21,462 nt of DNA. It comes from a virus. Below the pieces are notes generated by a model, which saw only the letters and a program-made list of their open reading frames with translations, did no database searches and was not told the DNA's origin. Positions within the stretch are counted from its first letter, which is position 1. Every line of letters begins with the position of its first letter. The position numbers and the translations under genes are program-made. Shown here piece by piece: positions 126-21,094 of this stretch. The stretch is taken from IMG/VR virus record IMGVR_UViG_3300020474_000147, positions 1 through 21,462 of that record; one strand, written 5' to 3'.

Positions 126-139
126 TTTCGTCTTACTAG
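114..139 (+). promoter_or_regulatory. Stop-codon hairpin plus TACTAG box
   Basis: Stem GAAAC/GTTTC (114-118 with 125-129) encloses the TAG stop of the incoming gene. TACTAG follows at 134-139. Here six bases (ATAAAT) separate the box from the next ATG at 146; at most junctions the ATG follows directly. Confidence 0.6.
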
Positions 140-145
140 ATAAAT

Positions 146-364
146 ATGACTTTGAAAAGAACTTTTGAAAACATAACAGGCATGTGGAAAAGACGCAAGA
201 CCGTAAGTGGGACAACAGAAACCCACTTTTACGGACAGATTAGGGAAACTATAACCCTTAACAAAGGCGATAAAGTCCACATGTATGAAACCAGAGCCAA
301 AGACCGAACTGCAAAATCACCGCAGTATCATCTTAAGGTTCTACGCGCAGAAGACGAATCTTGA
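146..364 (+). CDS. Small basic hypothetical protein, 72 aa
   Basis: Unrecognised 72-residue protein rich in Lys, Arg and Thr, with an alternating pattern (HFYGQIRETITLNKGDKVHMYE) suggesting a small beta-rich fold. No signal peptide or membrane segment. The ATG follows a TACTAG box by six bases. The TGA stop lies in the perfect hairpin CGAATC-TT-GATTCG at 355-368, just before the next TACTAG. Function unknown. Confidence 0.7.
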   Translation: MTLKRTFENITGMWKRRKTVSGTTETHFYGQIRETITLNKGDKVHMYETRAKDRTAKSPQYHLKVLRAEDES

Positions 365-382
365 TTCGTGGCCTGCTACTAG
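355..382 (+). promoter_or_regulatory. Stop-codon hairpin plus TACTAG box
   Basis: CGAATC (355-360) pairs with GATTCG (363-368), and the TGA stop at 362-364 sits in the turn. TACTAG is at 377-382, immediately before the ATG at 383. Confidence 0.65.
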
Positions 383-1984
383 ATGAACAATAGAGAAAAT
401 ATTGAACAAATGCTCGCACGCAATGAATTAGACTTCATAACCTCTGACGAGGCTCTGAGTCTTATAAAAAACAATAAGTGCGGCAAAATCACTGTGACAA
501 GTGGCGGTATAACTACCACTCCATTTGACACAATAGAGTTACTATTTTTGACAGAGTCCCTAAGTTTCAACCGAAGTCTGGTAGGCTACGCAGCAGATTT
601 ACGGACATTTACCCCAATGTATCAAGACTTTTTTGTTTTAACTAACAGCCGTCAATACGCACGAGCAAGAAGTAATAACATGGGTATTGATGGCTATTGT
701 ACACTTGGTGCTGGTATTTATTACCAGCGAACTAATTATACAATAAATGAAGACGAAGAATACTTCTATATCACGACGAAATTCGACATCTACACTAACA
801 CAGTGTTAGATACTATTAGGAATTTTTATAATGACGGATATTCTGAGGCATGTTTACTTTTACCTACGACTCCTCGATTTTTAGAGGAGGACAGCGAATG
901 GTCCAATTTCCGCAACTCTTTAGTAGAAGAGCAGGCTGTGACCTCGTCGCAAAGGAACAGAACTGGAATTACGAACGATTACCGCAACCATAACCGACTT
1001 AGGCAATGGCTGCATGAAAACCGTTTTCCAAGAATTCGTGCCCACGCCACAGATACCAATCGTGACACCATAGTTAGAACCGAAGACGGTCTTACTACTT
1101 GTGTCGCAATTAAAAAGTTCAAATATACTGCACCCACACAGGTGATACTAAACCAGAATCCGATCCGCTCAACAGGGTGGGTAGACTTTGGTTCGATGAG
1201 AACATTTGAAATACGTCAAGGTTTTTTTAATGACCGAAACACCAAAAGTAAAATCGGTCAACAAACTTTGTACAGCAAAACAGTAACTACAAACACTTTT
1301 TCAAAAAGAAAAAATAACAAAATGTTTAACGGCATTTTTGACGAAAGTGGAAGATACACTATAGCCAATATAGTCTGCACCGATACTGGTGTTGATGACG
1401 AAGAATTACTTCGCTTGCTGAAAAGTAAGGTGGCTACTAATATCTACCCCGAAACTAATAAGAAAGTATTGCTAAATGCAAATGCTTTCTTGAAAACATA
1501 TACTGATGGCCCCCTTGAGGAGCATATTCTAAAACTGCCGGGTATCATAGGCTCTGAACTCTTTTTATGGAGAGAAGGAGACTTTGATGGTACTCAGGCT
1601 GGTTCAACCTTAACCGACTATGGTCAAATTGAAGACGGCGTGTATAAAATACGCTTGTCTCACAGTTCGACTCTGCGTCGCGACAAAAAGATTGCAAAAA
1701 TGAATAACGGTATCTATCGAGTCTGTATAGACTCGGATATGGATATCATTCAATATGTAGATACAGTTTCCAACGCTTTGGCCGAAATAACGGTTGAGGC
1801 AAATAGGGGAAGACTGACTATGGATTCTGGTGCTTCGCAAACTCTGCGAGTCTCTAGAAGAAATAGAACGTTATCTACCACTGACAGCACAAGCGAACCA
1901 CCTACTAAAAAAATCGGTGTTCGTCGAAGTGCTAGAAAGATTTTTGGAGACTTTCTTAGAAAAGGAAGTCTTGAGGAAGAGTGA
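383..1984 (+). CDS. Large hypothetical protein, 533 aa
   Basis: The longest gene in the window. I cannot place it in a family. The sequence is soluble-looking, with no membrane segments, and rich in aromatic and polar residues through the first 350 positions. About the last 50 residues are low-complexity and strongly basic (around SEPPTKKIGVRRSARKIF), ending SLEEE. The basic tail could bind nucleic acid, or be an exposed terminus of a structural protein; both are guesses. The ATG directly follows CTACTAG at 377-382. The TGA is followed by a GNRA-capped hairpin (TGGC GAAA GCCA, 1986-1997) and TACTAG for the next gene. Confidence 0.85.
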   Translation: MNNRENIEQMLARNELDFITSDEALSLIKNNKCGKITVTSGGITTTPFDTIELLFLTESLSFNRSLVGYAADLRTFTPMYQDFFVLTNSRQYARARSNNMGIDGYCTLGAGIYYQRTNYTINEDEEYFYITTKFDIYTNTVLDTIRNFYNDGYSEACLLLPTTPRFLEEDSEWSNFRNSLVEEQAVTSSQRNRTGITNDYRNHNRLRQWLHENRFPRIRAHATDTNRDTIVRTEDGLTTCVAIKKFKYTAPTQVILNQNPIRSTGWVDFGSMRTFEIRQGFFNDRNTKSKIGQQTLYSKTVTTNTFSKRKNNKMFNGIFDESGRYTIANIVCTDTGVDDEELLRLLKSKVATNIYPETNKKVLLNANAFLKTYTDGPLEEHILKLPGIIGSELFLWREGDFDGTQAGSTLTDYGQIEDGVYKIRLSHSSTLRRDKKIAKMNNGIYRVCIDSDMDIIQYVDTVSNALAEITVEANRGRLTMDSGASQTLRVSRRNRTLSTTDSTSEPPTKKIGVRRSARKIFGDFLRKGSLEEE

Positions 1985-1985
1985 T

Positions 1986-2003
1986 TGGCGAAAGCCATAC
2001 TAG
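1986..2003 (+). promoter_or_regulatory. GAAA-tetraloop hairpin plus TACTAG box
   Basis: TGGC (1986-1989), loop GAAA, GCCA (1994-1997), then TACTAG at 1998-2003 and ATG at 2004. The upstream stop is two bases before the stem. Confidence 0.6.
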
Positions 2004-2522
2004 ATGAAATACAATTGCAAAATATGCGATTTAGAATTTACAACAGAGGCTGCAGAAAAACTGCATAACTCTGTTTTTCACAAAAAAGAAATCAAAACAA
2101 AGACACCGAAAAAACCGCCAAAGAAGGATAAACTCCTAGCAACTGATGGTAGGAAAGGATACCTTTCTGGTGACGGTCGACATGTTGCAGCGTTCCTGCC
2201 CGATGGCAAGTCTACTAAATATAAAGACTACATCAAAGGAATGCGAAATGATTTCCCTGACTTCAAAGTTGGCGACAAACTCGCTGCCAAAGAGGTTAGA
2301 AATTTGTTTAAGCACGATATCTATAATACAAAGGATATCAAAGGTGCTAAACTGGAAGTTAAAAGAATTGTCAAGAATAAGAATGGTATTAGAAGATACC
2401 ATTTGGAGAACAGCAAAGTACGATTGACGTGGTCCGAAGGGGTCGCTTTCAAGAGTCATGCTGAACGAAAAATGCGTGACAAACATATTATACTTCCAAT
2501 TAATTTGTTTCATAAAAAGTGA
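2004..2522 (+). CDS. C2H2 zinc-finger protein, 172 aa
   Basis: Residues 3-28 form a classical C2H2 finger: C5-x2-C8-x12-H21-x4-H26, with Phe12 and Leu20 at the usual hydrophobic positions. A Lys/Pro-rich linker (about 28-45) and a basic C-terminal region of about 125 residues follow, which I do not recognise. Single C2H2 fingers are common in archaeal viruses and less so in bacterial phages, so this is a weak host clue. Probable role is nucleic-acid binding, perhaps transcription control. The TGA lies in hairpin GTTTCA/TGAAAC (2507-2525) before TACTAG at 2526. Confidence 0.8.
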   Translation: MKYNCKICDLEFTTEAAEKLHNSVFHKKEIKTKTPKKPPKKDKLLATDGRKGYLSGDGRHVAAFLPDGKSTKYKDYIKGMRNDFPDFKVGDKLAAKEVRNLFKHDIYNTKDIKGAKLEVKRIVKNKNGIRRYHLENSKVRLTWSEGVAFKSHAERKMRDKHIILPINLFHKK

Positions 2523-2540
2523 AACTACTAGTATGACGTA

Positions 2541-2663: not shown

Positions 2664-2726
2664 GACTAACTACAATTGGGGGATACGCAAAGCCAAGTAG
2701 GGTAGAATATCTACTTGTGCTCCTAG

Positions 2727-2810
2727 ATGAGTTCGGAAGATAACCCCATGCGGGCCTTCCCATTAAGTAAGAACAATGATATCAAAGTTTTGAGTGTGGT
2801 TAGAATATAG
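2727..2810 (+). CDS. Possible 27-aa peptide, or part of a small structured RNA
   Basis: Starts directly after TCCTAG (2721-2726), a near-match to the TACTAG box. It ends in a TAG at 2808-2810 inside hairpin TGTGG/CCACA (2795-2815). This placement fits the window's gene architecture. However, the ORF also contains a stable nested hairpin (GGAAG 2735-2739 with CTTCC 2756-2760, inner CCC/GGG), so the stretch may be a small RNA instead. No recognisable protein motif. Confidence 0.35.
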   Translation: MSSEDNPMRAFPLSKNNDIKVLSVVRI

Positions 2811-2823
2811 CCACATTCATCAG

Positions 2824-3018
2824 ATGAGTAAAATCGAAGATGACGTATGTCAACAAATACAAGACCGTGCCAAAGTGGGGCTAAACAAATATGGAACCAC
2901 TATGGAGCGTACTGACCTTTCTACAATAGAATGGTTGGAACACGCCAAACAAGAAGCAATGGATCTTGTCATATACTTAGAGCGTATCATACAAGATATG
3001 CGTAAGAAGGAAGAATGA
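2824..3018 (+). CDS. MazG-like / phage accessory protein, 64 aa
   Basis: I place the start at the ATG at 2824 (MSKIEDD), directly after a degenerate box (CATCAG), not at the upstream in-frame ATG at 2794, which overlaps the preceding hairpin. The pattern RAKVGLNKYGTTMERTDLS then EWLEHAKQEAMDLVIYLE matches a small all-helical family widespread in tailed phages and related to MazG-like nucleotide pyrophosphohydrolases; the EW-x2-H-x3-E-x2-D residues suggest a metal-binding helix. Whether it is an active hydrolase is uncertain, since it is shorter than full MazG domains. The TGA lies in the loop of stem AAGGAAG/CTTCCTT (3007-3027). Confidence 0.7.
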   Translation: MSKIEDDVCQQIQDRAKVGLNKYGTTMERTDLSTIEWLEHAKQEAMDLVIYLERIIQDMRKKEE

Positions 3019-3033
3019 ATCTTCCTTTACTAG
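3007..3033 (+). promoter_or_regulatory. Stop-codon hairpin plus TACTAG box
   Basis: Seven-base-pair stem AAGGAAG (3007-3013) with CTTCCTT (3021-3027). TGA is in the seven-base loop. TACTAG at 3028-3033 abuts the ATG at 3034. Confidence 0.7.
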
Positions 3034-3348: not shown

Positions 3349-3398
3349 GTCAAAACATAGTAAGTTTAATTACTAACTAGGTTTACTCGATTTACTAG
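3347..3398 (+). promoter_or_regulatory. Two-part intergenic hairpin plus TACTAG box
   Basis: The only longer spacer in this cluster. GAGT (3347-3350) pairs with ACTC just before 3390, an AAAC/GTTT helix continues it, and TAGTAA/TTACTA forms the tip. TACTAG is at 3393-3398 before the ATG at 3399. Confidence 0.5.
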
Positions 3399-3596
3399 AT
3401 GACACAGATGCCAAGGCAAAGTGAGACTTCGACACAAAGTGTGTCAGAAGAAATACAACGACTGGCGAACAGCATATATGAGCACCACAATTACAAGTCT
3501 CTTTCGGGAGAAGAAAAGTGGATGCCCGCAGATGTTGCATTTGATTTAGCAAGAAAATTGTTGAAAGAAAAAAATGCCCGCCTGTCTACTAGATGA
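3399..3596 (+). CDS. Hypothetical helical protein, 65 aa
   Basis: Unrecognised. Residues 1-15 are Ser/Thr/Gln-rich; from about 16 the sequence (EEIQRLANSIYEHH, DVAFDLARKLLKEK) predicts two amphipathic helices. Its last codons, TCT ACT AGA TGA, contain the TACTAG box of the next gene, and the stop overlaps the next start (ATGA). The box is thus kept even where it must be translated, here as Ser-Thr-Arg. No hairpin is obvious at this overlap. Confidence 0.6.
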   Translation: MTQMPRQSETSTQSVSEEIQRLANSIYEHHNYKSLSGEEKWMPADVAFDLARKLLKEKNARLSTR

Positions 3597-4822
3597 GTAA
3601 TATAAACGAAAATCACGGATACGCAGTTGAAGGAAAATTAATGGAATCGACAAAGGGCTATTTGGTCCTATGGTCGATTAATGCAGGTACTATGAGGTAT
3701 GCCGACTTGGTCGCTGTTGCTAAAAGCAACAATTTGAGCCAAGGCAAGATACCAAAACTACGTACTGCAAAGAATGCTTTTGCAAAAGCAAAAGACGCTA
3801 TACAGAACTCGTCACTACCAGTACTTCTAGAACTAGAAGGATGGGATGGTGCCGTTAAGCAAAGTGTAGATGTAAAACATCTGATGAGAGGAAATGAATA
3901 CCAAATCTCGATTCGTCGAGAAGGTAGGATGAATGGAAAGTTACACAAGGAAAGTACACCGGTCTTTAGACTGGAGTTCTCTCCTCCAGATACTTTCGAT
4001 CACGTAGCATGGGTACAAAACTACATGCGCTCTTTTTGGGATGAAGCATACATCAAACAAATTGAAGATGGTGAGGTCGAAAGACCTGTGCCAAGTCAAA
4101 CACTTTGTTGCATACGTATAGAAGGTTATTGGAACGAGACAGAAATCAATATTGATTTAATGTCTCAAGTACAAAGACAGATATCAGAAGCGTTTCAAAA
4201 TACTATTGTTAGTATTGACGAAACTCTTCTAAGACAACATATCAAAGACACATTAGTTTCCCTACGCGGAGTAAACTTCCTTGCAGGCAAGGGAGTATCA
4301 TATGTGCCAACAAAAGTCAATGGTGTAGATACGTCTACATCTCTTGACTCTGTGGCTAATATAATTGCCTCTTTTGCTAGAGGTTACGAAGCAAGCGTAA
4401 ACAATGAAAACTACTATGGCGAAGATGGCAACCCTGTCAATCGCTATGGTACAAAGAGTAATTTTAGATACCTAGGATACTTGGACGGAGAAAGAGAGAT
4501 GCAATACATCCGAGAGGATTTAGGCTCTGACCTTTCAAAAGAAATCACTGAATTCCATGCAGAAGTTACCAAACTTGCTGGAGCCTTTGATACCGAAAAA
4601 GTAGAACAATTCGAAGCACGCATTTCCAAATTGCGTGTTAAGAAATCTAACATTACTAAAAGGCTAGCAAGTGCTGAAGAATTACTTGGTGGAAATATTC
4701 CTGTCAAAAGGAAAATGTACGCCGATGTAAACAACAGACTTCGCGGTCGAATAGCAAATATTCCTATGGCCAATGATGCAGTTACTGCTTCATTAGTTGA
4801 CCTTACGAATTTTGATAATTGA
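3593..4822 (+). CDS. Large hypothetical phage-type protein, 409 aa (DUF6744-like?)
   Basis: Soluble protein with an N-terminal mixed segment (1-200), a central stretch VSLRGVNFLAGKGVSYVPTK (about 222-241), and a C-terminal helical, charged region (about 300-375) likely to form a coiled coil. The central LRGVxFLxGKGVxYVP pattern recalls the 'LR-x-GGVYFVP' signature of a phage family annotated DUF6744, but I cannot confirm this. Start at 3593 is fixed by TACTAG at 3587-3592 and the ATGA overlap. The TGA lies at the edge of hairpin GAGG/CCTC (4821-4834), followed by TACTAG that heads the non-coding RNA 1 region. Confidence 0.75.
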   Translation: MSNINENHGYAVEGKLMESTKGYLVLWSINAGTMRYADLVAVAKSNNLSQGKIPKLRTAKNAFAKAKDAIQNSSLPVLLELEGWDGAVKQSVDVKHLMRGNEYQISIRREGRMNGKLHKESTPVFRLEFSPPDTFDHVAWVQNYMRSFWDEAYIKQIEDGEVERPVPSQTLCCIRIEGYWNETEINIDLMSQVQRQISEAFQNTIVSIDETLLRQHIKDTLVSLRGVNFLAGKGVSYVPTKVNGVDTSTSLDSVANIIASFARGYEASVNNENYYGEDGNPVNRYGTKSNFRYLGYLDGEREMQYIREDLGSDLSKEITEFHAEVTKLAGAFDTEKVEQFEARISKLRVKKSNITKRLASAEELLGGNIPVKRKMYADVNNRLRGRIANIPMANDAVTASLVDLTNFDN

Positions 4823-4841
4823 GGCTAACACCTCTTACTAG
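4821..4841 (+). promoter_or_regulatory. Hairpin plus TACTAG box heading a non-coding unit
   Basis: GAGG (4821-4824) pairs with CCTC (4831-4834); TACTAG is at 4836-4841. No convincing gene starts here; what follows is the ornate RNA candidate 4842-5500. Confidence 0.6.
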
Positions 4842-5500
4842 AAAGTAAATACAACTGATGCCCTTTTGGGCAAATGACGTATCGCCGAAAATTAAGCAAA
4901 CGAGTTTGCTTATCGGCTCATCCTACGGACAAGTCCCTCCACTTTGAAAAGTAGAGAGATTACCCTAACATCCCTATCACCTTGCGGCTCCGCTGCGGTG
5001 ACAACGGGACCTGCATTTCCTTGGCGGCTCCGCCTCGGAAATTTGGTCAGTAAAGTTGGAACCTGCCTACGCACGGCAGTTCCATTCTTCACTGATGTAA
5101 CGGGCCACCTACACTGAACTAACTAAAAGCAAGTTAGTTCACTGTGGCTAATCCTACGGAGAAACTATCAGGTGCCCTACGGGGACCTGACACTATGAGC
5201 CTATTTACCGACACTTGCTAGTTGGTTGCACCTCCTACGGAGGTTTAACAAGCCCTACGGGTCAACTACCCTGCGTGTCTTCGGCTCCTCGGAACTACTA
5301 CGGCACGAACGAAAGTTCATACCTTGAGCCACGGACCTATCCTGAGAGAATCTCAGGTGCTTAAAATATTCTGATATTTTAGCCGGTCCTGCGAGTACAT
5401 GACACCCTTGACCCCCTATGGGAGTTCCTAGTGTCATTTACCCTCGCGGCTGGCTCCAACCGGTTAAATCCGCCAGTTCCTCGGAAAAATAGTTTTACTT
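4842..5500 (+). ncRNA. Candidate large ornate non-coding RNA 1
   Basis: About 660 bases without a credible gene but dense in hairpins on the + strand. Examples: GCCC/GGGC 4860-4871; AAGCAAAC/GTTTGCTT inside GCCGA/TCGGC 4884-4917; TTTCC/GGAAA around GGCGG/CGCC 5016-5041; CTGCC/GGCAG 5063-5079; TGAACTAACT/AGTTAGTTCA inside GCCAC/GTGGC 5104-5148; TCAGGT/ACCTGA 5168-5190; a three-way junction closed by TAGTTG/CAACTA 5219-5268; GAAC-GAAA-GTTC 5307-5318; a junction closed by GGACC/GGTCC 5333-5389 holding two hairpins; ATGACAC/GTGTCAT 5399-5437; CTGGC/GCCAG 5450-5476. CCTACGG recurs five times at hairpin tips. It sits between TACTAG (4836) and CACTAG (5502). Size and complexity recall phage-borne ornate RNAs such as GOLLD and ROOL, but I cannot assign it to either. 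Confidence 0.7.
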
Positions 5501-5501
5501 T

Positions 5502-5534
5502 CACTAGAGCCTCGAAAGAGGAGAGTTGATTGAC
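5502..5534 (+). promoter_or_regulatory. CACTAG box, GNRA hairpin and SD-like AGGAG before the 5535 gene
   Basis: CACTAG at 5502-5507 is a one-base variant of the box. It is followed by CCTC-GAAA-GAGG (5510-5521) and GAGGAG (5518-5523), 11 bases before the ATG at 5535. If the hairpin forms it would hide part of this Shine-Dalgarno-like site. Confidence 0.4.
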
Positions 5535-5927
5535 ATGATTGAAGAAAGAAACGAAATAGTTGAAACAGCAGTTATTGATGTAGCACCCGTTACACCAATT
5601 GCTGAGCAACCAAAGAAAACAAAACCAGTTCCGATCACGAATGATATATTCATTCGTGTATGGAACGAATCTGAATATGTCACTGATGCAGCAGAAGTAA
5701 TGGGTATGAACCCAGCGTCTGCTAGAGCAAGGGCTGCGAAGTTGAGGACTATATTTGCGAAAGCAGGTGTAGAACTAAACTTGAAAAAGCACCCTAAAGC
5801 ACCAAGAAAGCAAAAGAAATCTTTGGTCAATGACCTAGATGAACTTGAGCGACTTGCTGCAATCGCCAATGCGTCAATGCAAACAGAAACAGCAACACAA
5901 AGTGCACCGTCAGAGCAATCTGAATGA
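5535..5927 (+). CDS. Putative HTH DNA-binding protein, 130 aa
   Basis: Residues about 33-80 (DIFIRVWNESEYVTDAAEVMGMNPASARARAAKLR then GVELNLKKHP) match a common small phage protein pattern: a helix-turn-helix in which 'W..s..v.eaA...gm...s.raa.LR..GV.Lk' marks the two helices and following turn. The acidic N-terminus and Ser/Thr/Gln-rich C-terminus are probably disordered. I chose ATG 5535 over the in-frame TTG at 5526, which is only two bases from the SD-like GGAG. It is flanked by the two long structured RNA regions, so it may act on them or regulate their expression; that is inference. The stop is at the edge of hairpin ACAC/GTGT before TACTAG at 5941. Confidence 0.65.
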   Translation: MIEERNEIVETAVIDVAPVTPIAEQPKKTKPVPITNDIFIRVWNESEYVTDAAEVMGMNPASARARAAKLRTIFAKAGVELNLKKHPKAPRKQKKSLVNDLDELERLAAIANASMQTETATQSAPSEQSE

Positions 5928-5946
5928 TACACTTGTGTTCTACTAG

Positions 5947-6400
5947 AGAGAACTAAAACACCGATGCTGAACAAGCACATGACGTAAATTAGAAACTATA
6001 AGACACGCATTAGCACGGAAGTCAAACTGATTTTCTGCTAAATCTAAATCTGCTGGTTACCCAAACAAGTAACCACGAATGAAATAAATCCACTCGTTGA
6101 TTTCATGGGGCAGTTGCCCCTCTCGAAATCTTACTTGACCGGGATAACCAGCACAATTAGAATAAAGAATTCACATCCGTGAATTAAACTACCACCACAT
6201 TAGAACGGTAGTCTGCCTTAGAATTAATTTCTACCTACCCACAACTGGAAACGTTCCGCGTGGCATAAACATCCACCTTTACAAAAGTAAAGGCCATACA
6301 ATACTGTACCACCAACAGTGAGGTAAAATCCTCACAACATTGGTTGGATGTTGAAACCACAGCGTCCGAGTTCCCTTGTGGAACCATAGAAATCAATAAA
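5947..6400 (+). ncRNA. Candidate large structured non-coding RNA 2
   Basis: Follows TACTAG at 5941-5946 with no credible gene. Pairings: TTAGCA/TGCTAA 6010-6041; a long closing helix TGCTGGTTA (6051-6059) with TAACCAGCA (6145-6153), continued by CCC/GGG and CAAGTAA/TTACTTG (6066-6072, 6131-6137), enclosing ATGAAAT/ATTTCAT 6079-6106 and GGGGC/GCCCC 6107-6120; AATTCAC/GTGAATT 6168-6185; ACTACC/GGTAGT 6188-6212; nested CCAC/GTGG and GGAA/TTCC 6239-6263; ACATCCA/TGGATGT 6269-6351 enclosing CCTTTAC/GTAAAGG 6276-6293 and GTGAGG/CCTCAC 6318-6335; GTTCC/GGAAC 6370-6384. These nested helices look like an evolved RNA fold. I recognise no tRNA, RNase P, tmRNA or intron core in it. The 3' end is uncertain; hairpins continue at 6420-6434 and 6444-6457. 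Confidence 0.65.
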
Positions 6401-6503
6401 AGTTAAACACTAAAACTAGGCAGCAATAAACTGCTAAAGTAAAGCGGCTTATATAAGCCCAATAGTAAAACTTGAAACTCTAAAAACATAGACCTCTCAC
6501 TAG
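6401..6503 (+). other. A-rich non-coding stretch with two hairpins, ending in a CACTAG box
   Basis: No ORF. GCAG/CTGC at 6420-6434 and the palindrome GGCTTATATAAGCC at 6444-6457 could be the 3' domain of RNA 2. CACTAG at 6498-6503 is followed by ATAGAC, the same hexamer that follows TACTAG at 8699-8704, where another non-coding unit begins. Confidence 0.4.
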
Positions 6504-6640
6504 ATAGACCACCATATTTTATATTCATCACCATGAAAAAATAATGGTTTATCTGACGTTCGGGAAAGACCGATAATAGATGAACACAAACTAAACCACT
6601 ACAACAACTCAATGCCGATTTCCTGAAAAAAGATTGGACG
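6504..6640 (+). ncRNA. Possible small structured RNA
   Basis: Begins after CACTAG (6498-6503). A helix GGTTTA (6546-6551) with TAAACC (6592-6597) encloses TCGG-GAAAGA-CCGA (6560-6573). Upstream, an A/T-rich arm near CCATATTTT can pair with AAAATAATGG (ending about 6547). The ORFs here are only 4-10 codons. Weaker evidence than for RNAs 1 and 2. Confidence 0.35.
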
Positions 6641-6641
6641 T

Positions 6642-6719: not shown

Positions 6720-6790
6720 AACCCGGCCCTGTGGTCCTAGTTTTTGTCTGACACCATGAAAGAATGGAACAACATTTGCGCCTCAAATAG

Positions 6791-8115: not shown

Positions 8116-8124
8116 GGTTACTAG

Positions 8125-14602: not shown

Positions 14603-14610
14603 GCTACTAG

Positions 14611-14961
14611 ATGATACATATAGATGTTACAGAACTACCAACCGAAATAACAGCAACAGCAACAATAGCGGTTTGCGATCAATTTGATTTGATTGCTAGA
14701 ACCGCAGAGGCTTTGATGGACTACGTGGTGGAAACGGACCCCAATGGGGACATAGCAAAAGAACTAATGTCAACTATCGAACAAATGAAGGAAAACAAAC
14801 CCCCAACCGATGCACCACCTGAGCGTGTTGCTAAGTGGGTTGTTGGAATGCCTGGATTAGTTCAATTAGTCGATGAATACTCGACGATGTTGACAACTAC
14901 TATTTGCGCTATCTCGGAATCTCATAAAGGTATGATACTTTTCCAAGATAAAAACAACTAA
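14611..14961 (+). CDS. Hypothetical protein, 116 aa
   Basis: Unrecognised. Acidic, mostly helical, with the pattern DQFDLIARTAEALMDYVVET and a Pro-rich turn (NKPPTDAPPE, about 71-80). The start directly follows TACTAG (14605-14610). The TAA overlaps hairpin AAGAC-CACG-GTCTT (14960-14973). Confidence 0.6.
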   Translation: MIHIDVTELPTEITATATIAVCDQFDLIARTAEALMDYVVETDPNGDIAKELMSTIEQMKENKPPTDAPPERVAKWVVGMPGLVQLVDEYSTMLTTTICAISESHKGMILFQDKNN

Positions 14962-14979
14962 GACCACGGTCTTTACTAG

Positions 14980-15312
14980 ATGGAAACATTAGGAAAAATA
15001 AAAACAGAAGAAGAACAAGTTGCCGAACTTGACGAATACACCGCAACTATGCGGCAGATTCGCAAGTTAGATGCTAGCAGAATGAGAATAAAACAATCAT
15101 TCCATGCTAACCTCGCACCAGGACAGACGATGGTCGGACATTATCAGATAAAATCTGGTCATGTCGATACTACCAGAATGAAGTCTGCAGAATCGTGCAG
15201 AGCAGAATTAAAGGGACTTGGGTATGAAGAAGAAGAAATTGTTAAGATAATGTCTAAACTAATTAATTATGGACAAAGCAGACAATTCTTAGTTAAATAC
15301 AACCCCCAATGA
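14980..15312 (+). CDS. Hypothetical protein resembling small phage recombination-accessory proteins, 110 aa
   Basis: Helical N-terminus (TEEEQVAELDEYTATMRQI, about 9-27), then GQTMVGHYQIKSGHVDTTRMKSA (about 48-70) and a C-terminal RQFLVKYN strand. This layout (long helix, beta strand, 'tT..k.' turn, helix, final strand) is reminiscent of small phage proteins near exonuclease genes, but no exonuclease is adjacent and the match is by eye. TACTAG precedes the ATG. The TGA lies at the start of GAGT/ACTC (15311-15328), enclosed by CCC/GGG. Confidence 0.5.
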   Translation: METLGKIKTEEEQVAELDEYTATMRQIRKLDASRMRIKQSFHANLAPGQTMVGHYQIKSGHVDTTRMKSAESCRAELKGLGYEEEEIVKIMSKLINYGQSRQFLVKYNPQ

Positions 15313-15342
15313 GTTAAAACAAAGACTCGAATGGGATACTAG

Positions 15343-15642
15343 ATGAAAGAGGCAGATTGGCAACCGAGCATATCGGATATAGAATGGACACGACGTACAA
15401 TAGATACTTTGGTGGAAGAAGGAGCATGGGGTATACCCTCTGCAAATGTCTTACTAAAAGTATCAAAGATAAACAAAAGATACGGAATAAGTCCAATAAA
15501 AGACAGATCACTTAATCAAAATGAAACAGACCTCCTAATTCGCACAGTTAAAACAATGAAAAAACTGGATTACGAAATAGGTGCTGTCGAAGGTGGAATA
15601 GCATTCCACTCTGGAATCAGTGTCATCTTTAAGATGGCTTGA
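15343..15642 (+). CDS. Small phage-type protein with W-x-PS-x-D-x-EW start, 99 aa
   Basis: Begins EADWQPSISDIEWTRRTIDTL then EGAWGIPSANVLLKVSK. A 'W.P...Di.Wt......l..gg.WgiP......k' pattern is one I associate with small uncharacterised proteins of tailed viruses; the function is not known. No metal or nucleotide motif. The TGA is in the 3' arm of a long two-part hairpin: GAATCA (15614-15619) with TGATTC (15640-15645), tip CATCT/AGATG. Confidence 0.6.
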   Translation: MKEADWQPSISDIEWTRRTIDTLVEEGAWGIPSANVLLKVSKINKRYGISPIKDRSLNQNETDLLIRTVKTMKKLDYEIGAVEGGIAFHSGISVIFKMA

Positions 15643-15652
15643 TTCTTACTAG
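15614..15652 (+). promoter_or_regulatory. Two-part stop-codon hairpin plus TACTAG box
   Basis: GAATCA/TGATTC outer stem and CATCT/AGATG inner stem, both formed by coding sequence of the 99-aa gene, with TGA in the outer 3' arm. TACTAG 15647-15652 abuts ATG 15653. Confidence 0.65.
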
Positions 15653-16117
15653 ATGAAACGAAACAAAGAAAAACATTGGAGCACACCGGGACTACTCGGT
15701 GTTGCTAAAATTACAACGTTAACGAACGAAGAACGAGATGAACTATACAAACAAACTGAACAGAATTTCAGAAAAAGGTTTGCAGATCATTCTCGTTATC
15801 AAAGTGGTTCGTCCGCTAGTAACATCCGGCTGGTAGAAAATCTGAAAACATTTTTAGATAGTCTACGCCCGCTGATGTCTACAAGCAACGACTACCGTTT
15901 TGATATACTTAACATAGTGATGATGTATGCCTTAAATGGCTTTAACATAGACACTAGATTGCACTACTTGCTTAGTGAAGAATACTTGTTGAGCCAACTG
16001 AAAGAGGTTGACCAAGAAGCATGGAAAGTGCAATATGAAAAAATGCGTGGGGGACTTCCCTACGATGGTGTGGACGATGCCGGTTGGTATTCGTCCCACA
16101 GAGAAACCTTCGAGTGA
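15653..16117 (+). CDS. Hypothetical protein, 154 aa
   Basis: Unrecognised. Basic N-terminus, helical centre with hydrophobic segment DILNIVMMYALNGFNIDTR (about 84-102, too polar for a membrane helix), and acidic, Gly/Tyr-rich C-terminus. The TGA adjoins a six-pair hairpin AAACCT/AGGTTT (16105-16122) whose last T is also the first base of TACTAG. Confidence 0.6.
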   Translation: MKRNKEKHWSTPGLLGVAKITTLTNEERDELYKQTEQNFRKRFADHSRYQSGSSASNIRLVENLKTFLDSLRPLMSTSNDYRFDILNIVMMYALNGFNIDTRLHYLLSEEYLLSQLKEVDQEAWKVQYEKMRGGLPYDGVDDAGWYSSHRETFE

Positions 16118-16127
16118 GGTTTACTAG
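16105..16127 (+). promoter_or_regulatory. Stop-codon hairpin overlapping the TACTAG box
   Basis: AAACCT (16105-16110) pairs with AGGTTT (16117-16122). The TGA at 16115-16117 spans loop and stem. TACTAG occupies 16122-16127, so stem and box share one base. Confidence 0.65.
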
Positions 16128-16349: not shown

Positions 16350-16371
16350 CCTGGGCTGATGCCCGTACTAG

Positions 16372-16722
16372 ATGAGAAAACGTGGAACGTTAAATGAAAG
16401 AGACCCTTTTACAACCGAAGTTGAAATCAACGAACCCGATAGGATTCGTTGGCCAATTAGGTGTAGAGCGGTTATCGACACGGGTGCGACAAGAACTTCT
16501 ATTGATGAAGGATTGGCTCGCACACTGAATCTCAAATCCGCTGGACGGGTTAGAGTAAGAAATGCAATGGGAGTACAAAAAAGGAAACTAGTTTGGCTAC
16601 AAATAGATGTCTTTAATGAAACAATTATACTAAAGGCTTCTATTACTAATAGATCTAAACTATCCTGTCCTATACTTATAGGAAGAGATATACTACATAA
16701 TGCATATGAGGAGGAAGAATGA
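16372..16722 (+). CDS. Retropepsin-like aspartic protease, 116 aa
   Basis: Residues 33-44 AVIDTGATRTSI carry the catalytic D36-T-G motif of retroviral-type aspartic proteases, with hydrophobic residues before it. The second signature, CPILIGRDIL at 99-108, matches the 'iLiGrDfl' alpha-turn segment. About 116 residues is the size of a single retropepsin monomer, which acts as a dimer. A role in processing viral or host proteins is likely; the substrate is unknown. It ends AYEEEE because the sequence GAGGAGGAAGAATGATG is also the Shine-Dalgarno site and start of the next ORF (TGATG overlap). Confidence 0.7.
   Translation: MRKRGTLNERDPFTTEVEINEPDRIRWPIRCRAVIDTGATRTSIDEGLARTLNLKSAGRVRVRNAMGVQKRKLVWLQIDVFNETIILKASITNRSKLSCPILIGRDILHNAYEEEE
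16709..16714 (+). promoter_or_regulatory. Shine-Dalgarno site AGGAGG
   Basis: AGGAGG at 16709-16714 is seven bases from the ATG at 16722, which overlaps the upstream TGA. There is no TACTAG at this junction. Confidence 0.75.
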
Positions 16723-16969: not shown

Positions 16970-16980
16970 TCCTCTACTAG

Positions 16981-17664
16981 ATGACAAAAATAACACCAAT
17001 TTTTGAAGATGATGACGAAGACAAGCGTAAGAAACGAGCGTATCAACGCAAGTATCGCGAAGAGAATCGTGAGAAGTTAAACGCGTATCAACGCAAGTAT
17101 CGCGAAGAGAATCGTGAGAAGTTAAACGCGTATAACCGCAAGTATCGCGAAAAGAATCGTGAGAAGATAAAGGCGTATTACCGCAAGTATCGCGAAGAGA
17201 ATCGTGAGAAGATAAATGCAAGATATAATGAGATGCACAAAGCAAATCCTGAGAAGAGAAATGCAAGAAGACGCAAGTATCACGCAGCGAATCCTGAGAA
17301 ACGAGCAGCGTACGAACGCAAGGCTTACGAAAAGAATTCCAAAGACCCTGAATGGGTTGAGAGAAGAAATACGTACGCACGCAAGTACTACGAAGAGAAT
17401 CGTGAGAAGATTGCTGTGCGAAGCCGCAAGTCTTACGAAGAGAATCGCAAAGACCCTGAATGGGTTGAGAAGATAAATGCGAAACAACGCGAGTATCGCA
17501 AAGAGAATCTTGAGAAGATACGAGCGAGAGAACGCGAGTACCAAAAAAAGAATCGTGATAAGATAAATGCAAAAAGACGCGCAAGACACAAAGCAAATCC
17601 TGAGAAGAGAAATGCGATAAACCGCGCACGCTATCGCGCAAACAAAAAACAAGAGGAAGAATAA
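16981..17664 (+). CDS. Lys/Arg/Glu-rich 15-residue tandem-repeat protein, 227 aa
   Basis: After an acidic lead (EDDDEDKRKKR), about 13 tandem repeats of roughly 15 residues with consensus AYxRKYREENREKIN run to the C-terminus; two carry a KDPEWVE insertion. Repeats 1-4 are nearly identical in DNA, later ones diverged, indicating recent expansion at the N-terminal end. Such highly charged helical repeats occur in phage and giant-virus proteins of unknown role, sometimes linked to zinc-knuckle or HNH modules; DNA or RNA binding is plausible. Related repeats appear in the proteins at 18092 and 18421. The TAA is in the loop of AGAGGA/TCCTCT (17652-17670). Confidence 0.7.
   Translation: MTKITPIFEDDDEDKRKKRAYQRKYREENREKLNAYQRKYREENREKLNAYNRKYREKNREKIKAYYRKYREENREKINARYNEMHKANPEKRNARRRKYHAANPEKRAAYERKAYEKNSKDPEWVERRNTYARKYYEENREKIAVRSRKSYEENRKDPEWVEKINAKQREYRKENLEKIRAREREYQKKNRDKINAKRRARHKANPEKRNAINRARYRANKKQEEE
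17035..17225 (+). repeat. 45-bp tandem repeats within the 227-aa protein gene
   Basis: Four near-identical copies containing CGCAAGTATCGCGAAGAGAA and GTGAGAAG, in frame with the 15-residue protein repeat. Copies further downstream to about 17650 are degenerate. It is coding sequence, not a CRISPR array: there are no unique spacers. Confidence 0.8.
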
Positions 17665-17675
17665 TCCTCTACTAG
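17652..17675 (+). promoter_or_regulatory. SD-like arm in a stop-codon hairpin plus TACTAG box
   Basis: AGAGGA (17652-17657) pairs with TCCTCT (17665-17670); TAA lies in the loop. TACTAG 17670-17675 abuts ATG 17676. The 5' arm is the same GAGGAAGA used as a Shine-Dalgarno site before boxless genes, here masked by its complement. Confidence 0.65.
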
Positions 17676-18080
17676 ATGGAACAAGAAAACAAACTAAAAA
17701 TAACAACTAAGACTACAAAAATACCACTGTATTGTCCTGATAATCGGATAAGAGTGTGTATTGTTGATAGACTAAAAGATGTAAAATCTTTCAGAGATAC
17801 TGTAGAAGATGCAGACCAATATGATGTTGCAGATGCAGTGTTGTTTATAGACGAAAGCAAAAAATACACTACGTTTACGATGATTTTCGAAAGAGAACAC
17901 ATAGGCGCAGGTCATATTGCTCACGAATCGATTCATATGAAGAATCATATTTTCGGTTCTATAGGAATCGAACTAGACCCGGCAAACGACGAACCAGAAG
18001 CATATTTTATGCAATGGTTAGTCGATTTTGCTACTAGTGTCTGGAAAAAAGACCAAGAAAGATTTCAAAAGGATGAATAA
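17676..18080 (+). CDS. Phage-type HExxH putative metalloprotease, 134 aa
   Basis: Residues 79-91 GHIAHESIHMKNH contain H83-E84-x2-H87, the zinc-metallopeptidase motif, followed about 18 residues later by NDEPEAYFMQWL (104-115), whose acids may supply the third ligand. This pair of motifs ('iaHE..H......GI..dp.NDEp.AYl..Wl') marks a small uncharacterised family in tailed phages. Protease activity is unproven; the family may act on host proteins. TACTAG precedes the ATG. The stop is in AGGAT/ATCCT (18070-18084). Confidence 0.65.
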   Translation: MEQENKLKITTKTTKIPLYCPDNRIRVCIVDRLKDVKSFRDTVEDADQYDVADAVLFIDESKKYTTFTMIFEREHIGAGHIAHESIHMKNHIFGSIGIELDPANDEPEAYFMQWLVDFATSVWKKDQERFQKDE

Positions 18081-18091
18081 TCCTCTACTAG
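18070..18091 (+). promoter_or_regulatory. Stop-codon hairpin plus TACTAG box
   Basis: AGGAT (18070-18074) pairs with ATCCT (18080-18084), with the TAA in loop and stem. TACTAG 18086-18091 abuts ATG 18092. Confidence 0.6.
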
Positions 18092-18409
18092 ATGGAAATT
18101 AAAATAGATATTAGTGTAGAAGAAATACTAACTCTATGCGGTATACAACAAGAGATTGACAAAAAGGAAGTCGCTAGACTTCGTAAAAATGCCAGTAACC
18201 AAAGATACCGTGAAAGAAACAGAGAAATGATCAATGCTAAACAACGCCTATATCGCAATAAAAACTTAGAGCGAGCGAAGGTTCAGCAAGAGGAATGGCG
18301 CAAAGCCAACCCTGAAAAACGCGCAGCACAAGCCCGACGATATCGCGAGAGACACCGCGAAATGTTGGCTAGAAAGCAACGCGAATATCAAAAAAGAAAG
18401 AAGGAGTGA
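18092..18409 (+). CDS. Charged repeat protein, 105 aa
   Basis: A 25-residue N-terminal part (MEIKIDISVEEILTLCGIQQ) is followed by about five degenerate copies of the 15-residue RxYRExNREKINAK-type repeat seen in the neighbour at 16981. Predicted long charged helix. Probably a paralogue that gained a different N-terminus. The stop is in AGGA-GTGA-TCCT (18402-18413), a GNRA-type loop, before TACTAG at 18415. Confidence 0.65.
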   Translation: MEIKIDISVEEILTLCGIQQEIDKKEVARLRKNASNQRYRERNREMINAKQRLYRNKNLERAKVQQEEWRKANPEKRAAQARRYRERHREMLARKQREYQKRKKE

Positions 18410-18420
18410 TCCTCTACTAG

Positions 18421-18843
18421 ATGGTTAATATGAAACTAATTAACGTATCGAATACGAGTCTTTCGCTTTACAAAGGGAATAGACATCGTAAGTTCGATGC
18501 TAAACAATCAAAGAGACATGACTATGGAACAGCACTTTGTGCAGTATGTGATAAGGTATTTACCAAATATCACCAACGCATAACGACTTGTTCCGAGGAA
18601 TGTAAGCGTGAGAAGGAACGAGCGTATAAACGCAAGTACCGCGAAGAGAATCTTGAGAAGATGAAAGCGTATGGCCGCAAGTATCGCGAAGAGAATCGTG
18701 AGAAGTTGAATGCGCAAAACCGCAAGTATCGCGAAGAAACTTGTGGTAAGTCTCAACGCAAGTACTACGAAGAGAATCGTGAGAAGATAAATGCGCAAAG
18801 ACGCGCACTATATCACGCAAAGAAAAAACAAGAGGAAGAATGA
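18421..18843 (+). CDS. Zinc-knuckle plus charged-repeat protein, 140 aa
   Basis: Residues 40-61 hold C40-x2-C43 and C57-x3-C61 (CAVCDKVFTKY ... TTCSEECK), a zinc knuckle like that at 14072. From about 64 to the end run five copies of the RKYREENREK repeat. One repeat has ETCGKSQRKYYEEN, where a copy appears shortened. Ends KKQEEE like the 227-aa paralogue. Likely nucleic-acid binding. Start at TACTAG-ATG 18421; a second in-frame Met is at residue 4. The stop is in AGAGGA/TCCTCT (18831-18849). Confidence 0.65.
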   Translation: MVNMKLINVSNTSLSLYKGNRHRKFDAKQSKRHDYGTALCAVCDKVFTKYHQRITTCSEECKREKERAYKRKYREENLEKMKAYGRKYREENREKLNAQNRKYREETCGKSQRKYYEENREKINAQRRALYHAKKKQEEE

Positions 18844-18854
18844 TCCTCTACTAG
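18831..18854 (+). promoter_or_regulatory. SD-like arm in a stop-codon hairpin plus TACTAG box
   Basis: AGAGGA (18831-18836) pairs with TCCTCT (18844-18849) and TGA is in the loop. TACTAG 18849-18854, then one A and the ATG at 18856. Closely matches the junction at 17652. Confidence 0.6.
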
Positions 18855-18855: not shown

Positions 18856-19002
18856 ATGGAAGAAGAAGAAGATTACATGAGTATCGCGTGGATAAAAAGA
18901 AATTGGAAATCGGGAACGGTTTCCAGTTCTAAATTACCACAATTTGCTCATGCTGATAAAAAATATAACTTTCGCTATGTAATAAATAGCGAGGAGGAAT
19001 AA
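18856..19002 (+). CDS. Small hypothetical protein, 48 aa
   Basis: Begins MEEEEDYMSIAWIKRNWKSG, ends YVINSEEE. No motif recognised. Start is one base after TACTAG; an in-frame second Met is at residue 8. The C-terminal EEE codons form GAGGAGG, the Shine-Dalgarno site of the next gene, and the TAA is two bases before that gene's ATG. Confidence 0.55.
   Translation: MEEEEDYMSIAWIKRNWKSGTVSSSKLPQFAHADKKYNFRYVINSEEE
18992..18997 (+). promoter_or_regulatory. Shine-Dalgarno site AGGAGG
   Basis: AGGAGG at 18992-18997, seven bases from ATG 19005. No TACTAG here. Same spacing as at 16722 and 16844. Confidence 0.75.
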
Positions 19003-19004
19003 GA

Positions 19005-19253
19005 ATGAGAAACCATCGAATAGAAACGCGAGTCAAAAACACTAAAACCGGAGCAATCTGGTATTGTGTAGTGGCTGACGATGGAAGGTACTACAATGGT
19101 ATTCACCTTGTGAGTATACACGACAAGAAGATCGATGCGCTGATAAACATGACGTCACATCCTGATGGATGGAGATGGCTGAAAGCAAATGGATATACTT
19201 ATGATGGTTTACTTGAAATGAAATACCGTTCAAAAAGAGGTGAGGAAGAATGA
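19005..19253 (+). CDS. Hypothetical protein, 82 aa
   Basis: Beta-rich N-terminal half (RIETRVKNTKTGAIWYCVVA) and a C-terminal WRWLKANGYTYDGLLEM segment. No family recognised. One of three genes using a plain Shine-Dalgarno start. The TGA is within AGAGGT/ACCTCT (19236-19258), which joins the TACTAG box of the next gene. Confidence 0.6.
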   Translation: MRNHRIETRVKNTKTGAIWYCVVADDGRYYNGIHLVSIHDKKIDALINMTSHPDGWRWLKANGYTYDGLLEMKYRSKRGEEE

Positions 19254-19263
19254 CCTCTACTAG
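19236..19263 (+). promoter_or_regulatory. Stop-codon hairpin plus TACTAG box
   Basis: AGAGGT (19236-19241) pairs with ACCTCT (19253-19258); alternatively GAGG (19242-19245) with CCTC (19254-19257). TGA 19251-19253. TACTAG 19258-19263 abuts ATG 19264. Confidence 0.6.
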
Positions 19264-19539
19264 ATGGAAGAAAAAATTGAATGCTCAATTTGTTTGAAAA
19301 CAATAGAACCACATCCGAATGATACAAGAGAATGGGGTGGTTGGATATATGGGAATAATCCCGATCCAATCGCCAAAGGTCGCTGTTGCGACACCTGCGA
19401 TTGTCTCATTGTCATACCTGCTAGAATGGGTATGCAAGGTGCGGCGGCTATTGAGTTTGGACAAGTGATGCTAAAAAATCGGATTAACCCTCCGGATTTT
19501 GAAAAAATTAAAGAAACCCTTAAGAAACAGGCTGAATAA
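19264..19539 (+). CDS. Small zinc-binding phage-type protein, 91 aa
   Basis: C7-x2-C10 and C41/C42-x2-C45 with the phrase GNNPDPIAKGRCCDTCDCLIVIPAR (about 30-54). The pattern 'C.iC.k.iep........GnNp.Pia.GrCCd.Cn..vViPaR' marks a small conserved family found in many phages and prophages; its function is unknown. Zinc binding by the four Cys is likely. TACTAG precedes the ATG; the TAA is in AGGCT/AGCCT (19529-19543). Confidence 0.7.
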   Translation: MEEKIECSICLKTIEPHPNDTREWGGWIYGNNPDPIAKGRCCDTCDCLIVIPARMGMQGAAAIEFGQVMLKNRINPPDFEKIKETLKKQAE

Positions 19540-19550
19540 GCCTCTACTAG
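19529..19550 (+). promoter_or_regulatory. Stop-codon hairpin plus TACTAG box
   Basis: AGGCT (19529-19533) pairs with AGCCT (19539-19543), with TAA at loop and stem. TACTAG 19545-19550 abuts ATG 19551. Confidence 0.6.
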
Positions 19551-19667
19551 ATGAGTGATTTACACGATGAAATGATTGCATGGCGTTCCCATTTAAGGAA
19601 CGAAAATGCTACTAGTCACATCTCTGATGAACATATGCCACATATTGGCGAGTTTATCGGAGAGTGA
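19551..19667 (+). CDS. Small hypothetical protein, 38 aa
   Basis: Starts directly after TACTAG (MSDLHDEMIAWRSHL) and is His/Glu/Asp-rich. No motif recognised. It carries an internal TACTAG at 19610-19615 that is not followed by a start. The TGA lies in a weak stem AGTTT/GAACT (19651-19670) directly before TACTAG at 19671. Confidence 0.5.
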   Translation: MSDLHDEMIAWRSHLRNENATSHISDEHMPHIGEFIGE

Positions 19668-19677
19668 ACTTACTAGA

Positions 19678-19947
19678 ATGAAAACTAAAAACGAGTTTGA
19701 ATATGAACACCAAAGACAAGAGAATGGTCGAAGAATTGAGATACTGACTGGAGACTGGATAAGTTTCCGAATTGATGAGGGTGAAGGGTATGGCGACTGG
19801 ATTAAAGTCAAGACCTACCAAGACCTCGAACAATTGCTCAGACAATACATTCTCCATGATTGGCCGATAGGATGTGACTTACCATCGGAAATGATAATGG
19901 ATGACGATGGTGTTGTTCAGAACAAATACCCACCCTTTATAGAGTGA
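19678..19947 (+). CDS. Hypothetical acidic protein, 89 aa
   Basis: I choose the ATG at 19678, one base after TACTAG, rather than an upstream in-frame ATG at 19606 that would overlap the 38-aa gene. Begins MKTKNEFEYEHQRQENGRR, with several Trp (TGDWISFRI, YGDWIKVKTY, HDWPIG) and an acidic C-terminus. Family not recognised. Followed by a weak hairpin and TACTAG-A-ATG of the ligase gene. Confidence 0.6.
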   Translation: MKTKNEFEYEHQRQENGRRIEILTGDWISFRIDEGEGYGDWIKVKTYQDLEQLLRQYILHDWPIGCDLPSEMIMDDDGVVQNKYPPFIE

Positions 19948-19957
19948 GGTTACTAGA

Positions 19958-21073
19958 ATGAGTAAAGAATTTGAAACAAAAATAATATACAAGAAAACTA
20001 GCACAGGCAAAATCCAGCAATGGCAAGCCTGGGTTGAAAAGACTGAAACTGGATATCTGTTAAAAGTTAGGTCGGGTCAAACCGATGGTAAACTTACAGA
20101 AACAACAGGACAGATTATTGATGAAGGTAAGCAAAAGCGTACCGCAAAAGAGCAAGCAATTTTTGAGGCTAACTCAAAAGTTAACAAGAAACTAGACGAA
20201 GGATATTCTGACAGCATTGAAACTGCTAAGAATTACGTCAAGTTGCTACCGATGCTGGCACATCCTTTTGCTAAGCGAAAGCACAACATCAACTATCCTG
20301 CAATTGTTCAGAGAAAATTTGACGGTGTACGATGTCTAGCCATCCTAAAGGATGACGGCACTGTATCACTAATGTCAAGAAAAGGAAAAGAATTTCCTCA
20401 CATGAATCATATCAGAAAAGACATTGCTGCTAATAACAGTGATACTACTTTGATACTTGACGGTGAGTTATATTCTGATACCTTGTCTTTCCAAGAACTG
20501 GTTGGACTTGTAAAACGTGTTACACTGAAAGAAGGAAATAATGAGCAAATGCTCCAAGTTTCCCTACGTGTATACGATTGTATAAAATTAAACGAAGAAC
20601 CTGGGTTTCAACAAAGACATGGGATAATTGCCAAAGTAACAAATGGTGCAAATTATCTTTCTTTAGTTGAAAACTTTACAGTGGAATCTGAAAAAGAAAT
20701 CCACGAAGCACAGGCTCGATTCGTAGAAGAAGGCTATGAAGGTGCTATGGTTAGAAACATAACCGGAGCATACGCCATCGGAAAAAGAAGTGCTAATTTA
20801 CAGAAAGTGAAAACTTTCTTAGACGGTGAATATGAAATCGTCGGCTTCAATCAAGCCTCAGGAAATGACATTGGAACGGTTATCTGGGTGTGTACAACAC
20901 CGGAAGGAAACCAATTCAACGTTAGACCTCGTGGTACGAGAGAAGTAAAGAGAGAACAATACGAAAACGGTGATTCTTACATTGGGCGACGATTAACTGT
21001 CCGATATCAAGAATTAACCGATGACGGTGTTCCAAGATTCCCAGTGGGAATAGCAATTCGCGATTACGAATAA
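19958..21073 (+). CDS. ATP-dependent DNA ligase, 371 aa
   Basis: Seals nicks in DNA via an enzyme-AMP intermediate. Motif I K120-F-D-G (adenylated lysine K120), then R141-K-G, motif III LDGELY (D168, E170), IIIa VYDCI (205-209), IV EGYEGAMVR (E258-E261), V LQKVKTF (K283, K285), and a C-terminal OB-fold (about 288-370). Residues 1-85 form a beta-rich N-terminal domain (WQAWVEKTETGYLLKVRSGQTDGK then EQAIFEANSKVNKKLDEGY) like the WGR-like N-terminus of several phage ligases. With primase and RNase H it completes an Okazaki-fragment set. Start is one base after TACTAG (19951-19956). Confidence 0.9.
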   Translation: MSKEFETKIIYKKTSTGKIQQWQAWVEKTETGYLLKVRSGQTDGKLTETTGQIIDEGKQKRTAKEQAIFEANSKVNKKLDEGYSDSIETAKNYVKLLPMLAHPFAKRKHNINYPAIVQRKFDGVRCLAILKDDGTVSLMSRKGKEFPHMNHIRKDIAANNSDTTLILDGELYSDTLSFQELVGLVKRVTLKEGNNEQMLQVSLRVYDCIKLNEEPGFQQRHGIIAKVTNGANYLSLVENFTVESEKEIHEAQARFVEEGYEGAMVRNITGAYAIGKRSANLQKVKTFLDGEYEIVGFNQASGNDIGTVIWVCTTPEGNQFNVRPRGTREVKREQYENGDSYIGRRLTVRYQELTDDGVPRFPVGIAIRDYE

Positions 21074-21075
21074 TT

Positions 21076-21094
21076 GCCTTAACTGGCTTACTAG
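21076..21094 (+). promoter_or_regulatory. Weak hairpin plus TACTAG box
   Basis: GCC/GGC (21076-21087) is only three pairs; TACTAG 21089-21094 abuts ATG 21095. Confidence 0.45.

Follow-up and report, generated by a model that had tools for sequence, protein, structure and literature searches.

A hairpin-TACTAG element opens nearly every unit of a 21-kb viral DNA record and may mark boundaries between RNAs

Among described systems, those closest in appearance to the element reported here are the Start Associated Sequences (SAS) of cluster K mycobacteriophages, which come with upstream inverted repeats (PMC3203893). The SAS, GGGATAGGAGCCC, is a 13-bp consensus with a Shine-Dalgarno (SD)-like core that lies 3-9 bp ahead of 13-19 genes, and the Extended SAS (ESAS) adds a 17-bp inverted repeat with conserved arm sequence and SigA-like promoters (PMC11373665). 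About half of the SAS have an inverted repeat just upstream, similar motifs occur in Microbacterium cluster EF, and the function of SAS and ESAS is not settled (PMC3203893, PMC7302621, PMC11373665). In T7, a long transcript is cut between genes by RNase III, and the resulting mRNAs keep a stable 3' hairpin (PMC9032294). Leaderless translation is also well known, and leaderless mRNAs made by MazF have been proposed, a proposal not reproduced by other laboratories (PMC9031893). Here we describe a six-base box, TACTAG, preceded by a hairpin, that stands at nearly every unit start of the virus record IMGVR_UViG_3300020474_000147. The whole record is exactly the 21,462-base window that we examined.

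Like the SAS and ESAS, the box is a conserved motif at many start codons: 27 exact boxes touch an ATG and 5 more lie one base from it. It differs from them in that its letters are TACTAG rather than GGGATAGGAGCCC, its SD duplex energy is that of random positions, its inverted repeat has no shared sequence, no SigA-like -35/-10 was found upstream of the boxes, and it touches the ATG and precedes nearly all units, non-coding ones included. Cluster K SAS and ESAS are therefore the nearest systems in appearance, but three of their four defining features fail here. The view put forward in the preliminary description, that no virus has such start punctuation, consequently needs the caveat of the cluster K SAS with its upstream inverted repeats (PMC3203893), which yet has an SD-like core and serves few genes (PMC11373665).

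The window contains 47 exact copies of TACTAG on both strands (40 on the + strand and 7 on the - strand), against 8.9 +/- 3.0, with a maximum of 20, in dinucleotide shuffles. Unit starts hold 37 of the 40 + strand copies, and two of the seven - strand copies are palindromic overlaps of + boxes. Within genes, TACTAG occurs at chance level (4 copies versus 4.2 expected from codon-preserving shuffles), so its enrichment is confined to unit starts. The string TACTAGATG is found 27 times on the + strand and never on the - strand, and its reversed control is absent. All of the 37 exact boxes, six near-matches and three in-gene copies reported earlier were recovered in place. At one in-gene copy, 19610, a hairpin lies right at the box edge, and the surrounding small open reading frame (ORF), 19551-19667, is possibly split or mis-called.

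The ATG follows the 37 exact boxes at +0 in 27 cases, at +1 in 5, at +6 in 1 and at +11 in 1. No gene follows the exact boxes at 4836, 5941 and 8699 or the near-match at 6498, which open units without an ORF; the earlier wording that a box precedes almost every gene should accordingly read 'almost every unit'. Three of these units begin with a hairpin and TACTAG (4821..4841, 5922..5946 and 8685..8704, opening units A, B and D) and one with a variant CACTAG lacking a hairpin (6498..6503, opening unit C). Units A (4842..5501), B (5947..6497), C (6504..6882) and D (8705-8860) measure 660, 551, 379 and 156 nt and have no convincing reading frame. Strong folding is seen on both strands for A and B, and on the + strand for C (z -6.2, versus -0.8 on the - strand); D is structured as well. 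A search of the non-coding units against Rfam gave no match, nor did a search of phage DNA with A, B and C. As the box opens ORF-less units too, it is not purely a translation signal; it marks RNA units, not start codons alone.

The first base of the box varies with the kind of unit upstream. Of the 39 boxes that follow coding units, 37 start with T, but none of the four that follow non-coding units does (Fisher p = 1.2e-4); these four read CACTAG three times and AACTAG once (5502, 6498, 6883 and 8861). Base 1 thus behaves as if it were part of the upstream RNA.

The box is one half of a hairpin-plus-box element. A perfect stem of at least 4 bp ends 0-1 nt before 26 of the 37 exact boxes, compared with a mean of 7.2 and a maximum of 16 for shuffled upstream sequences, and this signal is lost once the frame is moved by at least 3 nt. 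By ensemble folding, the box edge is paired with upstream bases at 31 of 37 boxes versus 30% of random positions. At the perfect-stem sites, stem lengths (4-10) and loop lengths (3-9) vary and there is no common arm sequence, with 20 distinct 5' arms among 26 sites. Arms pair with their own partner at 26 of 26 sites, whereas exchanging the 3' arms among sites leaves a mean of 3.2 pairing and a maximum of 9; what is conserved is the pairing of the arms, not their letters. At most sites, the pyrimidine preceding the box belongs to the hairpin's closing pair, as its 3' member. The earlier reading of the box as start punctuation is therefore supported but incomplete, as it covered half of the element and the element opens non-coding units too.

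Of 25 upstream stop codons tested, 23 fall inside the hairpin, and most units have 2-16 nt between stop and box. This would suit translational coupling, with the ribosome that finishes the previous gene opening the hairpin and restarting at the adjacent AUG while the box helps to hold it. We consider coupling improbable. Stop codons are found in each part of the hairpin (3' arm 10, loop 7, 5' arm 6), which shows that it is the box, not the stop codon, that fixes the hairpin's position, and several units keep their box despite a stop-to-box distance of 43-57 nt. Moreover, coupling fails for the genes at 6889 and 8867, because both follow non-coding units and have no preceding frame, yet have hairpin, box and ATG; non-coding units are themselves preceded by boxes.

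In the BioBrick RFC10 standard, the scar ahead of a coding part is TACTAG followed by ATG, letters identical to those found here. An artefact or engineered sequence can nevertheless be dismissed for practical purposes: there are no ribosome-binding-site parts upstream, the site-specific hairpins overlap native stop codons, boxes open non-coding units, variant boxes occur, and the genome is otherwise unknown and comes from IMG/VR.

Consistent with the earlier claim that the box cannot serve as an SD site, the 27 box-ATG genes have a mean anti-SD duplex energy of -1.94 kcal/mol, equal to that of random positions (-1.92); for comparison, T7 genes average -8.9 kcal/mol, and 37 of 37 pass -5. Two second-in-unit genes without a box, 16719 and 19005, have a strong SD, GAGGAGGA, in the stretches 16689..16718 and 18975..19004 (duplexes of -12.3 and -11.8; these are two clear cases only), and the genes with a longer leader, 5536 and 9906, have SD duplexes of -9.1 and -7.3. 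Box and SD exclude each other. The strong SDs at second-in-unit and long-leader genes indicate that the host anti-SD is ordinary and that the box replaces the SD only where the AUG adjoins it. Pairing of the box with the 3' end of 16S rRNA was considered and rejected: in E. coli, which may not be the host, CTAGTA occurs in the 16S rRNA only at 248 and 1344 of 1542, both internal.

In the predicted RNA pairing profile, pairing extends as far as the base that precedes the box, and the RNA then lies open across the box and on to about codon 8 (around +28), a profile that in the model resembles the one at an RNA 5' end. It is also what one would want for SD-independent ribosome entry in cis, the main rival explanation, in which ribosomes, or a viral initiation factor, would load onto an intact, uncut polycistronic RNA at UACUAG-AUG, this stretch and the first codons being held open by the hairpin. 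An AUG within an unstructured patch can function without an SD, and the mutual exclusion of box and SD would be expected. We regard this as unlikely, if by no means negligible, since the element also opens ORF-less units, the hairpin sits where a ribosome on a continuous mRNA would be, and openness alone needs no invariant UACUAG.

A leaderless first gene followed by SD-dependent later genes is what is expected if the box is an RNA 5' end, and two features of leaderless mRNAs, first genes without an SD and internal genes with one, are found here. We tentatively favor, at a little below an even chance, a model in which hairpin-UACUAG would be an RNA-level boundary between expression units, cut from long + transcripts, that leaves the first gene leaderless or nearly so. 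An RNA would begin at or within UACUAG, the upstream RNA would retain the hairpin as a protected 3' end, and the first gene of each RNA would be read as a leaderless or near-leaderless (0-6 nt) mRNA, which needs no SD. Such RNA ends would most likely be made by a viral or host endonuclease that cuts long + strand transcripts and reads single-stranded UACUAG at the hairpin base.

The nearest system in its proposed working would, by analogy, be T7 RNase III processing. An intergenic stem-loop precedes 31 of 37 boxes here, as between T7 genes, and may likewise form a 3' end. The two differ in that T7 genes have SDs (37 of 37 tested) and share no box, and in that boundary stems here are mostly 4-10 bp rather than long RNase III duplexes. 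RNase III requires long duplexes, and the short stems make it a poor fit. RNase E, which cuts RN-cut-WUU (PMC5222698), was rejected as well, as a cut after the box G would place U at +2 in only 3 of the 12 boxes without a direct ATG. With both enzymes poor fits, a dedicated nuclease may be involved. In its strongest form, which the sequence makes conceivable but which we hold to be rather doubtful, such a nuclease would act on each hairpin-UACUAG of a single transcript folded like an RNA phage genome, releasing leaderless mRNAs of one gene each together with free non-coding RNAs; the boxes would then form a universal punctuation code that makes no use of SDs. In leaderless mRNAs, as proposed here, there is no SD and the AUG lies at or near the 5' end, and the MazF proposal likewise involves a sequence-specific cut just before the AUG; it concerns ACA sites of a stressed host, however, not a fixed six-base box plus hairpin before nearly every unit.

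RNA 5' ends could instead arise from a separate promoter at each box, used by an unusual, perhaps viral, RNA polymerase, with the hairpin being either a DNA/RNA element like that of the N4 virion polymerase or the terminator of the previous gene. Transcription initiation is the usual origin of leaderless transcripts, an intrinsic-terminator-like hairpin (12434-12463, 9-bp stem, T8) ends 4 nt before the box at 12468 (element 12434..12473, ATG +0), and SigA-like promoters lie inside the Adephagia ESAS (PMC11373665). Upstream of the boxes in this window, however, there is no -10/-35 or clearly conserved column besides the hairpin edge: only the positions of the hairpin edge, -1 and -2, rise above the 95% point of the null, and the 2-25 nt ahead of the boxes contain no promoter-like -10, which rejects sigma-70 promoters. 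The N4 promoter hairpin has a fixed short stem, a 3-nt loop and a constant distance. With stems of 4-10 and loops of 3-9, the hairpins here vary too much to fit that fixed design, and an N4-type promoter was rejected. Six bases and a variable hairpin are also little for a promoter, and a dependence of box base 1 on the class of the upstream unit would not be expected. We judge promoters distinctly unlikely, and transcript cleavage appears likelier than 37 promoters.

Codons included, the + strand as a whole folds much better than its shuffles. In 240-nt tiles, mean z versus dinucleotide shuffles is -3.14 for the window, -0.60 for T7, -0.92 for T4 and -4.39 for MS2. In coding regions, against shuffles that preserve protein and codon usage, it is -2.82 for the window, -0.16 for T7 and -3.07 for MS2. 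The better strand of 70 IMG/VR loci has a mean z of -0.78 (minimum -2.86), and 46 viral and bacterial loci have a similar mean. One locus examined for comparison looked similar in its folding, yet the leaders of its genes are A/T-rich and the box is absent. The coding RNA therefore resembles that of MS2, a single-stranded RNA phage, in folding beyond codon-preserving shuffles, but this genome differs from MS2 in encoding a DNA ligase, a PriS-like primase and RNase H, which identify it as that of a DNA virus. Such MS2-like folding of the + strand is not what a DNA virus usually shows, and T7 and T4 lack it. It may stem from selection on RNA, for protection or to restrict cuts to the boxes, or from template switching on DNA; under cleavage, heavy folding elsewhere could confine cutting to the open boxes.

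The template-switching origin belongs to another explanation, that the element is a DNA-level mark for recombination, nicking or replication between gene cassettes. Inverted repeats are enriched throughout, with 104 stems of at least 6 Watson-Crick pairs versus 30 expected (3.5x), and the - strand folds as well. We nonetheless consider a DNA mark very improbable. An RNA-level element rather than a DNA one is indicated by the one-way orientation of TACTAGATG (27:0), its precise placing next to AUG, the exclusion of SDs and the better folding of the + strand than of the - strand (p = 6.6e-4).

Several observations weigh against RNA cleavage at the boxes. By ensemble folding, six exact boxes have no confident hairpin. 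The - strand is structured in its own right (z -2.36), and G-T versus A-C mismatches in the hairpins, a test of RNA versus DNA wobble, number 5 versus 4, favouring neither. With the terminator-like hairpin ahead of box 12468, transcription of the next gene would depend on read-through or on a promoter close by. The proteins of the window, most of them orphans, yielded no candidate nuclease. Finally, the element is known from one 21-kb record, for which no relative was found.

The element belongs with intergenic RNA punctuation and start-associated sequences, and there is a real chance that it is categorically new. SD sites or promoters are the normal guides to phage genes; here an AUG-fused box with a co-varying hairpin replaces the SD at the first gene of nearly every unit, and the same element also delimits non-coding RNAs. 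Should the box be a cleavage site, it would provide a general route from one transcript to many leaderless mRNAs and imply a new RNase that recognises both sequence and structure. In that case RNA cutting, as with tRNA punctuation in organelles, would organise expression in place of promoters and ribosome-binding sites. The MS2-like folding of the coding strand of a DNA virus is a second unexpected property.

The genome is that of a DNA phage or archaeal virus with all genes on one strand, and its host is possibly a bacterium or an archaeon. The primase gene (6889-8115) encodes a PriS-like small subunit of archaeal/eukaryotic type (Pfam DNA_primase_S); archaeal PriS was its only match in a PDB search, it matches Natrinema PriS weakly, and it has no match in GenBank phages. 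The ATP-dependent DNA ligase is nearest to that of a 735-kb uncultured phage (39% identity), which has no TACTAGATG in 41 kb. A retropepsin-like aspartyl protease (16372-16722; Pfam gag-asp_proteas, E 1e-7) is unusual for a phage. Other identified proteins are RNase H and HNH-like proteins, and most of the remainder are orphans; AlphaFold without an alignment gave a predicted local distance difference test score (pLDDT) of 31 and 35 for the 533-aa and 409-aa orphans, too low for the models to be of use. To find relatives, we compared five proteins (primase, ligase, the 533-aa and 409-aa orphans and RNase H) with IMG/VR, ran tblastn against GenBank phages and plasmids, and searched box-pair spacing patterns, two in IMG/VR and one in GTDB genomes. 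Every spacing-pattern match examined was an apparent in-gene repeat, conserved in-gene sequence or a chance pair, a hairpin-specific pattern gave zero matches, and neither IMG/VR nor GTDB nor GenBank phages yielded a relative with this punctuation.

The remaining elements, all on the + strand, follow the same plan with local variation. A hairpin followed by TACTAG and an ATG at +0 is found at 1986..2003, 3007..3033 (8 bp), 9672..9692, 10339..10360, 11420..11440, 14408..14431 (7 bp), 14588..14610 (6 bp), 14960..14979, 16105..16127, 16352..16371, 17653..17675, 18070..18091, 18402..18420, 19242..19263 and 19529..19550. With the ATG still at +0, the hairpin is compound at 347..382, 13174..13206 and 15305..15342, bulged at 14039..14071 and long at 15613..15652; it is weak at 3393..3398, 16975..16980 and 21089..21094 (here and for the next three sites, coordinates are those of the box), imperfect at 8119..8124 (RNase H), a long-loop stem at 12698..12703, and not clear at 3587..3592, where the box lies within the end of the preceding ORF. 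The ATG is at +1 after the hairpin and TACTAG at 10560..10580, 18832..18854, 19651..19676 and 19935..19956 (DNA ligase), and at +6 after a 10-bp hairpin at 110..139. At 2507..2531, a hairpin and TACTAG are followed by a short ORF at +9, the ATG at +1 giving 2 codons only. A long hairpin and TACTAG at 9855..9894 precede an 11-nt leader with an AGGAGA SD and the ATG at 9906.

Variant boxes with a hairpin and an ATG at +0 are TCCTAG at 2695..2726 (27-aa ORF), CATCAG at 2793..2823 (10 bp), CACTAG at 6862..6888 (9 bp, primase gene) and AACTAG at 8836..8866 (9 bp). The CACTAG at 5502..5507 has no hairpin, and the next gene starts at 5526 or 5535, with the SD AGAGGAG.

Short repeats recur near some boxes and in the non-coding units. 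ATGACGTA occurs four times (0.6 expected), at 2533, 2840, 4874 and 5979, 7-38 nt past a box start; in units A and B it lies exactly 38 nt after the box start, behind a matching small hairpin (GATGC...GCANATGACGTA). Unit A repeats CCTACGG at hairpin tips, and ATAGAC forms the first letters of both units C and D. Among the coding units, the neighbouring genes 16981-17664, 18092-18409 and 18421-18843 contain REENREKxNA-type repeats, and several genes around 16981-18843 end in Glu-Glu-Glu, codons that provide a hairpin arm or an SD.

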